The position numbers were made by a program, and so were the translations under genes. Of a stretch of 45,871 nt of DNA, positions 31,474 through 34,147 are shown piece by piece. The stretch covers positions 1-45,871 of the IMG/VR virus record IMGVR_UViG_3300031277_000005; one strand, 5' to 3'. Positions within the stretch are counted from its first letter, which is position 1; each line of letters begins with the position of its first letter. The DNA comes from a virus. Below the pieces are notes generated by a model. It had not been told where the DNA came from, did not search any database, and saw nothing but the letters and a program-made list of their open reading frames with translations.

Positions 31474-31658
31474 TTTTGCCTTCCAAAATCAAGCTGCTGC
31501 GGAAAAGAACCGATCGTAAACGGCCCTGGTTCCTTGTCTTCCGTCGGCGGGCACTGTGCCCACAGTGCGTTGCAGCACACGACCTGTCTGCACCCGTCGA
31601 GCCAGGCCCAGGTTAGACGGGAACCGCAGATCGGACATCTCGCATTTTCATCGCTCAT
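31470..31658 (-). CDS. Small zinc-ribbon protein
   Basis: 62 aa. MSDENARCPICGSRLTWAW, with a second Cys cluster (GCRQVVCCNALWAQC). SD GGAGGA lies 6 bases before ATG 31656-31658. The ATG touches the stop (TGA 31659-31661) of the second frame overlapping the methyltransferase, which helps to mark that frame as a real gene end. Confidence 0.66.
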   Translation of the reverse strand: MSDENARCPICGSRLTWAWLDGCRQVVCCNALWAQCPPTEDKEPGPFTIGSFPQQLDFGRQK

Positions 31659-32673
31659 TCAAAATCCTCCATGCTGCCGACGCCACTCTTGGAACTTGGC
31701 CGTTTCCAAGTGCTCTAATGCGGTCCACTCTGTTGGCCACCCCATGAGCCACTCGACCCACATCGGGTTCAGTTGGCCACCAGGGGATGCTTCTCTTGCC
31801 AAATTTGTTTTCGGATTCCCATCGCCTCTTTTGGCCCCAAGGCTTCCTTTCGCGTCGCTCGCGATCGGCGTCGGCCAGTGATTTCGTGCTGCCATCTCCT
31901 GCAAAGATGGACGATACGGTCCGGCTCTCCCGGACCCTCCACCTTTGTTCCCTCTCCTGCAAACCGTCGGTGTCGGAAACATCTTCGCATATCCGTCCAG
32001 CGACATGTGCTTCTTGTCCTTGCTTGGTCCTGTGTTGTTTCGTGGAGTCGGGAACCACGCCTTGCAACACGGCCATTTCGACATTGATGGGAAAAGCTGA
32101 TTCCCCGTACTCGTCGGTGTAGCCAAGTATCCATATCCTATCACGGATATGGGGCGCTCCGACGTCTGCCGCCGATACACAACACCACCTCGCATCATAC
32201 CCCATCTCGGCAATGCCACTGAGGACTCCGGTAAGACCTCGCCGAATAAGCATCGGTGAGTTTTCCACGAAGACAAATTTGGGTCGTACTTCACCGACGA
32301 TTCTTGCCATTTCCCGCCAAAGCCCTGATTCCGGTCCGTCGATACCTTCTCCCTTTCCTGCGCACGATATGTTGGTGCACGGAAACCCTCCCGATACCAC
32401 ATCAACAAGGCCTCGCCATGGGCGTCCGTCAAATGTCTCCACGTCCGACCAAATAGGGAATGGGGCCAGGATACCATCATCTTGTCTCTGCGCCAGAACG
32501 GCCGCGCAGTAGACGTCTCGCTCGACGGCGCATACAGTGCGCCAGCCGAGGAGGTGTCCGCCGAGTATTCCACCGCCGGCGCCGGCGAACAATGCGAGCT
32601 CTCGTAGGCCCTCTCTAGTGCGTTGCTGATTAGCCAGGTCATTGCTGTCCTCAGAAGAGTCCACGGTCCTCAT
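31648..32673 (-). CDS. DNA (cytosine-5) methyltransferase
   Basis: 341 aa. It transfers a methyl group from S-adenosylmethionine to cytosine C5. Motif I LFAGAGGG (about 28-35), motif IV GGFPCTNIS (catalytic C99; PCT in place of the usual PCQ), motif VI ENS (137-139), motif VIII RDRIWIL (177-183), motif X ALGNGQVP (321-328). The region between VIII and X (about 190-310) would be the target-recognition part. Start ATG 32671-32673 overlaps the end of the replication gene. It probably protects phage DNA from host restriction. Most of its length is covered by another plausible frame. Confidence 0.9.
   Translation of the reverse strand: MRTVDSSEDSNDLANQQRTREGLRELALFAGAGGGILGGHLLGWRTVCAVERDVYCAAVLAQRQDDGILAPFPIWSDVETFDGRPWRGLVDVVSGGFPCTNISCAGKGEGIDGPESGLWREMARIVGEVRPKFVFVENSPMLIRRGLTGVLSGIAEMGYDARWCCVSAADVGAPHIRDRIWILGYTDEYGESAFPINVEMAVLQGVVPDSTKQHRTKQGQEAHVAGRICEDVSDTDGLQEREQRWRVRESRTVSSIFAGDGSTKSLADADRERRERKPWGQKRRWESENKFGKRSIPWWPTEPDVGRVAHGVANRVDRIRALGNGQVPRVASAAWRILNER
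31659..32480 (-). CDS. Overprinted second protein in the methyltransferase gene
   Basis: Frame shifted relative to the methyltransferase, open from 32642 to TGA 31659. It is given here from ATG 32480 (273 aa); the true start is uncertain. Contains SSWKTHRCLFGE, LPRWGMMRGGVVY, repeated 'LATPTSTGN/MFPTPTV/HWPTPIAS' strings and LNPMWVEWLMGWPTEW near the C-terminus. I recognise these strings (SWKT, WPTPT-x-x-D, LNP-x-WVEWLMG-x-P) as an established phage protein family of unknown function. Its stop is next to the ATG of the zinc-ribbon gene (TGAATG). The same DNA encodes methyltransferase motif X in the other frame, so the locus appears dual-coding. Confidence 0.68.
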   Translation of the reverse strand: MMVSWPHSLFGRTWRHLTDAHGEALLMWYREGFRAPTYRAQEREKVSTDRNQGFGGKWQESSVKYDPNLSSWKTHRCLFGEVLPESSVALPRWGMMRGGVVYRRQTSERPISVIGYGYLATPTSTGNQLFPSMSKWPCCKAWFPTPRNNTGPSKDKKHMSLDGYAKMFPTPTVCRRGNKGGGSGRAGPYRPSLQEMAARNHWPTPIASDAKGSLGAKRGDGNPKTNLAREASPGGQLNPMWVEWLMGWPTEWTALEHLETAKFQEWRRQHGGF

Positions 32674-33619
32674 CCTTCTGGTCCTGCTTGAGAGCCTCTA
32701 TAGTCCGCCTTCGCATTGCCTCGGCCCTGGTCTCAGGCCTGGGCTCGAAATCGGCTGGAATTGTCTCCCAGTAGCCCTCACGCAGCCATCGGGACAGCGC
32801 CACGATGTACGAGCCGTTGTCCCTCTGCCATTTTGGTGATTTTTTCCAGTAGCCGAGGTACTCCTCAGCCTTTACGACCGTCATGCCGGCCGCCTTAGCC
32901 GTCTGCCAGCTCTTCCAGTCCTGGGCCTTCCCCCCGAGGCGGTGACTGGGATACTTGGATCTAAACGTCTCAAATTCAACAGAGTAAGACAATCGCGCGC
33001 GAGCGCGTTGTTTCTTCTTTGGGGCTACATGAGTATTACTGTATCTACTTTCTTCTGAAAACGTAAGAGTGGGAGCGGGAGCGGGAGTGGGAGCGGGAGT
33101 GGGAGTGGGAGTGGGAGCGGGAGTGCGAACTTTTGCATGACGCTTGCATCCGCTTGCATCCGTTTGCATTGCAAAAGATTCCGTTTGCATGCAAGTGTCT
33201 GCCGTTTGCATTTCATATGCACTATCTTTTCCCCACCGTTTTTCGGCTGCTTCCCTGCGTAAGTCGCTAATAGTCTTTCCCTTTTTTCTTCTGTCGGCTT
33301 CTCGCTTGGCTCTCTTCTGGACATACTCGGGGGCATGGTCAAACAAATCGTGCACCGAATAGATCCCGTCGTCGTCGATATCGATAAACCCGGAACGCGC
33401 CAGGCCGCCGCATTTCTCGAGGGCTGCGGTGAGCTCTCCGGCGGCGCCATCCCACTCGCACGCGAGCTCGACATCAGTGGCATCGCCGATACAGGGATCT
33501 CCGGACTCATAAGCCGAACACCATAGGAGTTCCAAATATCCAATTACTGCTGGCTTAGGTGCTCCAAGAATAAGGCATAGGCGACGGAACTTGTGGTGGT
33601 TTAGCAGGGTGGGTCGCAA
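32651..33619 (-). CDS. Replication initiator (phage O / replisome-organiser like)
   Basis: 322 aa from TTG 33617-33619 (SD GAGAGG six bases upstream; a TTG eight codons earlier lacks an SD). The N-terminus is a winged-helix-type domain (NHHKFRRLCLILGAPKPAVI; GFIDIDDDGIYSVHDLFDHA), then a basic linker, a Pro-Thr-Ala repeat (about 168-185), and a C-terminal domain WKSWQTAKAAG...YIVALSRWLREGYWE resembling the helicase-loading ends of phage replisome organisers. Like lambda O, the region between the domains contains phased repeats that could be its own binding sites (origin). Its ribosome-binding site is complementary to an upstream sequence. Confidence 0.8.
   Translation of the reverse strand: MRPTLLNHHKFRRLCLILGAPKPAVIGYLELLWCSAYESGDPCIGDATDVELACEWDGAAGELTAALEKCGGLARSGFIDIDDDGIYSVHDLFDHAPEYVQKRAKREADRRKKGKTISDLRREAAEKRWGKDSAYEMQTADTCMQTESFAMQTDASGCKRHAKVRTPAPTPTPTPAPTPAPAPTLTFSEESRYSNTHVAPKKKQRARARLSYSVEFETFRSKYPSHRLGGKAQDWKSWQTAKAAGMTVVKAEEYLGYWKKSPKWQRDNGSYIVALSRWLREGYWETIPADFEPRPETRAEAMRRRTIEALKQDQKDEDRGLF
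33068..33124 (-). repeat. Hexanucleotide repeat (GGGAGY) coding a Pro-Thr/Ala linker
   Basis: About nine copies of GGGAG(C/T) on the plus strand, giving TPAPTPTP-type linker on the minus strand, between the DNA-binding and C-terminal domains of the initiator. Such tracts vary in copy number by slippage. It lies between the iterons and an AT-richer stretch (33008-33066). Confidence 0.85.
33133..33211. repeat. Phased TTGCAT iterons; candidate replication origin
   Basis: TTGCAT (fuller unit CG(C/T)TTGCAT) begins at 33133, 33144, 33154, 33164, 33185 and 33206: spacings of 11, 10, 10, 21 and 21 bases, i.e. all on one face of the helix. They lie inside the initiator gene, between its DNA-binding and C-terminal parts. 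An AT-rich stretch follows at 33008-33066 after the hexamer repeat. This is the arrangement of the lambda origin within gene O. Two of the units are extended palindromes (TTTGCATTGCAAA; TTTGCATGCAA). Confidence 0.68.
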
Positions 33620-33735
33620 AGCAGACCTCTCGAAAAACCACAACCCAACAAACCAGACGAATGATTGTGATGAGAACTCCGCGAGGTCTGCTCACTCGTC
33701 TGGCTTATTGGACTGTGGTTGAAAATTCTCATCAC
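33620..33735 (-). promoter_or_regulatory. Leader of the initiator gene with SD-sequestering inverted repeats
   Basis: Three inverted repeats occur in interleaved order: agcagacctc (33620-33629) with gaggtctgct (33683-33692); ccagacga (33653-33660) with tcgtctgg (33696-33703); gtgatgagaa (33667-33676) with ttctcatcac (33726-33735). On the minus-strand mRNA the first pair places the SD (GAGAGG, 33626-33631) of the initiator in a 10-bp stem. The order A-B-C-A'-B'-C' prevents all pairs from forming as simple nested hairpins, so alternative folds are possible. No gene is present in 33620-33766. Confidence 0.6.
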
Positions 33736-33766
33736 ACCACAACTATCTCACGTTTCGCTTGGCGTG

Positions 33767-34147
33767 TCAACCCATCAAGTACCGCGAGATGACATCGATA
33801 CCCCTTTGCGTTGTGTAGACGACTTTGCATCTGTATCCGTTTTGGCTTGCTATCACTCCAAATCGCCATTGCTCCACGGTCAGCCCGCCTAGTTTATGGT
33901 TGCGCCTTTCTGGACTTTTCACCTCGATCCACAGCCCATGTGATACCGGACGGCCAGGTAGGCCTGGCTTGGCCAATAACAAATCCCACACGCCTGCACG
34001 GACCCCCTCTCGCTTCAGCATGGCGCCGGTTCGCGCGTCCCTCACGCCTCCGTTCGGAATTGCCAGTAACATCCTGTCCCCATACCGGAGATCATACCAA
34101 TCGATGATTCCGCACTGTATTAGATGCTCTTCGTTATTTCGCTTCAT
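33767..34147 (-). CDS. VRR-NUC family nuclease
   Basis: 126 aa. The catalytic layout E6/E7 - GVWDLLL (D55) - LWIEVKS (E75, K77) - LTVEQW (Q93) is that of VRR-NUC (PD-(D/E)XK type) nucleases, common in phage replication modules, where they act on branched or damaged DNA. PNGGVRDARTGAMLKREGVR before the catalytic Asp is also typical. It overlaps the small gene upstream by 14 bases. Confidence 0.87.
   Translation of the reverse strand: MKRNNEEHLIQCGIIDWYDLRYGDRMLLAIPNGGVRDARTGAMLKREGVRAGVWDLLLAKPGLPGRPVSHGLWIEVKSPERRNHKLGGLTVEQWRFGVIASQNGYRCKVVYTTQRGIDVISRYLMG

Follow-up and report, generated by a model that had tools for sequence, protein, structure and literature searches.

The locus of interest within the window (the whole 45,871-nt stretch of viral DNA that was analyzed) comprises a minus-strand replication initiator gene, an array of short repeats, a short-period tract and an AT-rich stretch inside that gene, and a leader with a promoter-like site upstream of it (Table 1). 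The initiator product matched the PHROG profiles phrog_9474 (replication initiators; E = 3.7e-23) and phrog_270 (E = 2.8e-08). On reading the sequence, an alternative start at TTG 33619, preceded by GAGAGG, looked better and was possibly better placed than TTG 33643, and it agrees with the short N-terminus of a Microcystis phage homologue.

Table 1. Features of the initiator locus (window coordinates)
Feature	Position	Strand	Details
Replication initiator gene (P0001)	32651-33643	-	330 aa counted from TTG 33643
AT-rich stretch, candidate unwinding element (putative role)	33030-33062		GC 0.30
Short-period tract, period 6	33064-33126		GGGAGY on +, CTCCCR on coding strand; GC 0.70
Iteron array, six TTGCAT	33133-33211	+	units at 33133, 33144, 33154, 33164, 33185, 33206
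Palindrome TTGCATGCAA	33185-33194		yields a seventh, opposite TTGCAT on the - strand at 33189-33194
Leader, three mutually crossing helices	33619-33736	-	29, 15, and 11 bp
Leader helix, 29 bp	33720-33692 with 33664-33636	-	
Leader helix, 15 bp	33736-33722 with 33680-33666	-	
Leader helix, 11 bp	33693-33683 with 33629-33619	-	
Promoter-like TTGACA-17-GATAGT	33742-33770	-	1 found vs 0.9 expected by chance

The initial annotation had described six TTGCAT units spaced by 11, 10, 10, 21, and 21 bp, and the positions read on the plus strand bore this out. On the coding strand, the units read ATGCAA and encode MQT three times, followed by DAS, GCK, and HAK, so that all three codon frames are used. 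Six ATGCAA units were never reached in 20,000 codon-order shuffles (mean 0.26, maximum 3), and synonymous shuffles, which kept the protein, gave six units in 6 of 20,000 cases. The claim that the array lies inside an initiator gene was thus upheld, the gene being supported by PHROG and the repeats exceeding what coding explains under both types of shuffling. The units also fall on one helix face as had been proposed: at 10.5 bp the phase resultant is 0.975, a value attained by 7 of 100,000 random placements. Across the whole window, no 6-mer clusters of at least five in 90 bp were found besides the array and the adjoining hexamer tract.

The hexamer tract and the AT-rich stretch said to follow the array were both present, with the refinement that the gene lies on the minus strand, so the order runs leftwards in the window, that is, downstream in the gene. 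The tract has a period-6 identity of 0.90 (over 30 nt) and, given its GC content, is not itself AT-rich; AT-richness is confined to the stretch beyond it. Of 31 linkers including that of the window, 19 had CCCC runs in the 100 nt that follow the tract, in many cases accompanied by a matching run of G (CCCCCTAAAGGGGG type); the count was made with no control set, and P22 gene 18 has this pattern too.

A structure model of the initiator, built with 23 relatives as input, predicted a confident helical N-terminal part (residues ~17-110), a confident C-terminal part (~222-290), and a low-confidence linker (145-216; pLDDT <50 at 145-173, 175-179, and 195-216). According to this model, the iterons and the tract are both encoded in the disordered linker, between two folded helical domains. 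The array had been placed between the DNA-binding and helicase-loading parts of the protein; what stands of this in the model is its position in a low-confidence linker flanked by two confident helical domains. Predicted disorder of the linker would leave room in the gene for DNA signals that are independent of codon frame. The best structure matches of the N-terminal part were IclR/MarR-like winged helices, the replication initiator 4pta, and the DnaD N-domain, with Z scores of only 4-5, and a Foldseek search with this part gave zero matches at E 0.001.

Close relatives of the initiator were not found in the searched viral contigs, genomes, and plasmids, and the nearest relatives were ~20-30% identical and had other unit sequences; both results were weighed against reading the locus as an origin. 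A search for DNA relatives of 32960-33780 among phages found none. The initiator N-domain retrieved phage Harrison, its relatives, 10 genome loci, and 32 viral loci; dereplication by shared 10-mers left 31 of 47 genes, and 30 relatives besides the window were analyzed. Two loci were left out of the family set (L165, incomplete gene; L170, start not located), and L123, near identical to nd4 (L124), was left out of the counts.

Exact self-matches of at least 6 bases, pooled over the 30 linkers and compared with 111 ORFs taken from elsewhere in those loci, peaked at lags 5, 10, 11, 15, 20, 22, and 25. Matches per kb in the linkers and the other ORFs were 8.5 and 0.3 at lag 5, 14.9 and 0.3 at lag 10, 18.9 and 0.6 at lag 11, 9.4 and 0.5 at lag 22, and 8.0 and 0.3 at lag 25, respectively. 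Lags 11 and 22 mark the iterons, and a second element accounts for lags 5, 15, and 25; since lags 10 and 20 are common to a 5-nt tract, only lags 11 and 22 are clean evidence for iterons. By a helical-lag score in a fixed linker window, 23 of the 30 relatives exceeded the 99th percentile of 719 control segments. Seven fell below it (L142, L150, L155, L157, L159, L163, and L167), which was counted against an origin; in L142 and L157 the signal was simply weak. Most relatives keep phased linker repeats with differing unit sequences, and initiators of the same kind lacking such repeats, which the initial annotation would have taken as contrary evidence, are therefore not what was found for most of them. 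L150, L155, L159, and L163 carry a Cys-rich domain inserted in the initiator linker, which by eye we take to be HNH-like, with iterons and tract 3' of the insert.

The second element was scored by identity over 30 nt, a tract being called at ≥0.65. Period-5 tracts were found in 25 of 30 relatives against 0 of 469 control segments, and period-6 tracts in 2 of 30 against 6 of 469; at periods 4, 7, 13, and 14, none of the 30 relatives had a tract. In 27 of 30 relatives (L129-L170, L002, L124-L128), the iterons are followed by a tract of period 5 or, rarely, 6, its step being kept and its unit sequence differing. The iterons lie 5' of the tract in 23 of 23 genes where both could be scored, namely the window and 22 relatives. 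The iteron units vary widely, from an 11-mer around ACGACCGCC in Clostridia phages and AACCGTTCA in a Microcystis phage to TTGCAT in the window, as do the tract units (AGANN, ACCTN, ACAGT, CCAGAG, and CTCCCR).

Viral contigs were scanned, blind to protein, for TTGCAT in three copies spaced by 10-11 bp, and at least 120 loci were returned. Among the matches listed, 77 lay inside an ORF of at least 100 codons, forming 44 clusters, and 43 of the 120 listed loci were in no ORF of 100 codons. Thirty-two clusters had at least 200 residues, and 30 representatives were scanned individually against PHROG (L115 and L117 were left out). Replication PHROGs (initiation, replisome organizer, O-like, DnaD-like loader, and primosomal) were matched by 21 of these 30, again among the matches listed; in 20 of those 21 listed the coding strand reads ATGCAA, as in the window, with L084 as the exception. 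L007 and 21 further loci (22 of the 120 listed) belong to one family of short conserved genes, in which the three-unit pattern is chance use and is not part of a larger phased array. The reversed motif TACGTT, taken as a null, gave 65 loci against the at least 120, and was dropped as a chance estimate because many of its matches were themselves initiators; 26 of the 65 loci lay in ORFs of at least 100 codons, many of them initiators, and the PHROG scan of these ORFs provided family totals only. Phased arrays of TACGTT in ORFs with initiator-like linkers were seen by eye at L180, L184, L187, L199, L209, L212, L217, L221, L226, L233, and L238. Because TACGTT also fell into initiators, more than one 6-mer forms phased arrays in initiator genes.

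Sequence records annotate origins within lambda O, P22 18, Tuc2009 orf16, and 80alpha gp20. According to the literature, the TP901-1 and Tuc2009 organizers bind repeats inside their own genes, the repeats acting as the origin (PMC8965321), gene 38 of SPP1 contains oriL (PMC5499656, PMC6316719), and lambdoid origins have a mid-O position with iterons and an AT-rich tract (PMC7466680). The lambda origin in O and that in P22 gene 18 resemble the window in having direct repeats mid-gene, followed in the direction of the gene by an opening region (PMC7466680). SPP1 oriL in gene 38 and 80alpha ORF20 are likewise initiator-gene origins with direct repeats and an AT-rich unwinding element (PMC6316719, PMC5499656); SPP1 has a second array copy elsewhere (oriR), whereas the window has no second array. 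The lambda units are 18-mers ~20-24 bp apart, in contrast to the 6-bp cores at 10-11 and 21 bp of the window. Lambda gene O is followed by the loader gene P, whereas the initiator gene of the window is followed by a C5 (cytosine) methyltransferase gene (31648-32673; Pfam, 3.6e-30) and no loader, a fact that was weighed against the origin reading. A module of the lambda O-P type was rejected on this ground; no helicase or helicase loader was recognized among the other ORFs scanned in the window.

The same tract measure was applied to five benchmark genes. Tuc2009 orf16 is like the window in having 11-period repeats (0.67) and a short-period tract in identical order, and it was the only one with a clear tract of period 5 (0.83); the unit sequences of Tuc2009 and TP901-1 differ from those of the window. 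Lambda O, at 0.57, had no period-5 or period-6 tract by the threshold used, unlike the window with its period of 6, and TP901-1 orf13 had no short tract either (0.50 at period 5 and 0.53 at period 6). P22 reached 0.67 at period 7 and 80alpha 0.63 at period 6, and lambda and TP901-1 stayed at ≤0.57 at periods 5-7. The tract is thus common in this initiator family and not universal among in-gene origins. In the DnaA-trio and single-stranded DNA motifs of bacterial origins, a short-period array likewise lies beside double-strand binding sites (PMC10797057), but the DnaA-trio step in oriC is a period of 3, in contrast to the 5 or 6 of the phage tracts.

Position, phasing, frame independence, recurrence in relatives, and order are the observed basis on which we consider that 33030-33211 is very probably a theta-type phage replication origin, set in the stretch of its own initiator gene that encodes the linker and working as follows. 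The N-terminal winged-helix-like domain of the initiator would bind the TTGCAT units on one helix face and wrap or bend the array. The strain would melt the DNA on the tract and AT-rich side (33030-33126), and the C-terminal domain would then recruit the host replicative helicase machinery. Protein binding and origin activity are here predicted from sequence. The proposal of an in-gene iteron origin of the lambda kind gained support from the initiator profile, the linker position, the phased repeats in relatives and their place 5' of the tract, the replication PHROGs matched in the protein-blind scan, the presence of both elements in Tuc2009, and the published in-gene origins, and the origin most likely belongs to the known in-gene iteron kind represented by lambda, Tuc2009, and SPP1 oriL. 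A GC-skew minimum near 33.1 kb, offered as a check of the origin, did not appear, as the cumulative minimum lies near 39 kb instead. Taken literally, this is the contrary outcome named in the initial annotation, and it was listed against an origin; because the skew flips where the gene strand flips, GC skew is uninformative as an origin test and was set aside.

The units could instead be operators at which the initiator or another regulator shuts off transcription within the gene, replication starting elsewhere. Phased own-sites of a DNA-binding protein can also serve autoregulation, and a promoter-like site and a structured leader do lie upstream of the initiator gene; however, the array is ~500 bp inside the gene, remote from the promoter-like site, and initiators including that of Tuc2009, where the array is the origin, repeat its position, its order, and the short-period tract next to it, which makes operators unlikely. 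Slightly less likely still is an array bound by a host factor, such as a DnaA-like or nucleoid protein, in place of the phage initiator: the recurrence of TTGCAT arrays in initiators of several PHROG families could reflect a common host protein, but relatives of the same family use many unit sequences, a pattern that would follow if every initiator recognized a site of its own. That the repeats are low complexity at the protein level (MQT/DAS/HAK, PTPTPT), expanded through slippage within a disordered linker and without function as DNA, is highly improbable, since, although linkers tolerate expansion and the period of 6 in the window keeps the frame and also occurs in the control segments, the units occupy all three frames on one helix face, relatives peak at lags that are not multiples of 3 (5, 10, 11, 20, 22, and 25), and synonymous shuffles so seldom give six units.

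Upstream of the gene carrying this probable origin, the promoter-like site would place the RNA start near the first arm of the leader. The leader stems form (Watson-Crick or G-U) on the transcript strand only, and each crosses the other two. In 500 shuffles, at most two stems of ≥11 bp were obtained and none exceeded 15 bp; the 29-bp stem contains five pairs that are not Watson-Crick, each of them G-U when read on the transcript strand. GAGAGG and TTG 33619, a plausible ribosome site and start, are covered by the last arm. Alternative pairings would expose or hide this start, and the leader thus looks like a multi-state switch controlling initiator supply. No match was found in Rfam. The leaders of 30 relatives shared no strong structure (best z -3.1), so the one described here is specific to the phage of the window.

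An in-gene iteron origin leaves two extras unexplained, the 5/6-nt tract and the leader with its crossing stems. The arrangement of iterons and a 5/6-nt tract across unrelated initiators is possibly new, as is an initiator leader RNA in which three helices, each crossing the other two, extend over the likely start; for the iteron-plus-pentamer arrangement, no description was found in the accessible part of the open-licence literature, which is weak evidence of novelty. As a tentative possibility, unrelated phage initiators may share one origin grammar written in the linker, in which one-turn double-stranded DNA iterons are followed by a strand-polar 5-/6-nt array whose sequence drifts and whose step is kept. 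Once the strands are open, the initiator or helicase would use the array as a register for stepping along single-stranded DNA, which would make it the phage equivalent of the DnaA-trio, and in this phage the three mutually exclusive helices of the leader RNA would in addition gate initiator synthesis. The comparison also shows that the linkers of many phage initiators are readable as DNA, with one-turn repeats and then a 5/6-nt tract, making origins predictable from sequence alone. If functional, the tract would be a second, unexplained origin element. A likely origin is now placed for a phage without detectable near relatives; the close-relative searches made with the terminase returned none. 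Erf-like, exonuclease VIII-like, and ParB-like genes were observed on the plus strand at 41-44 kb of the window.
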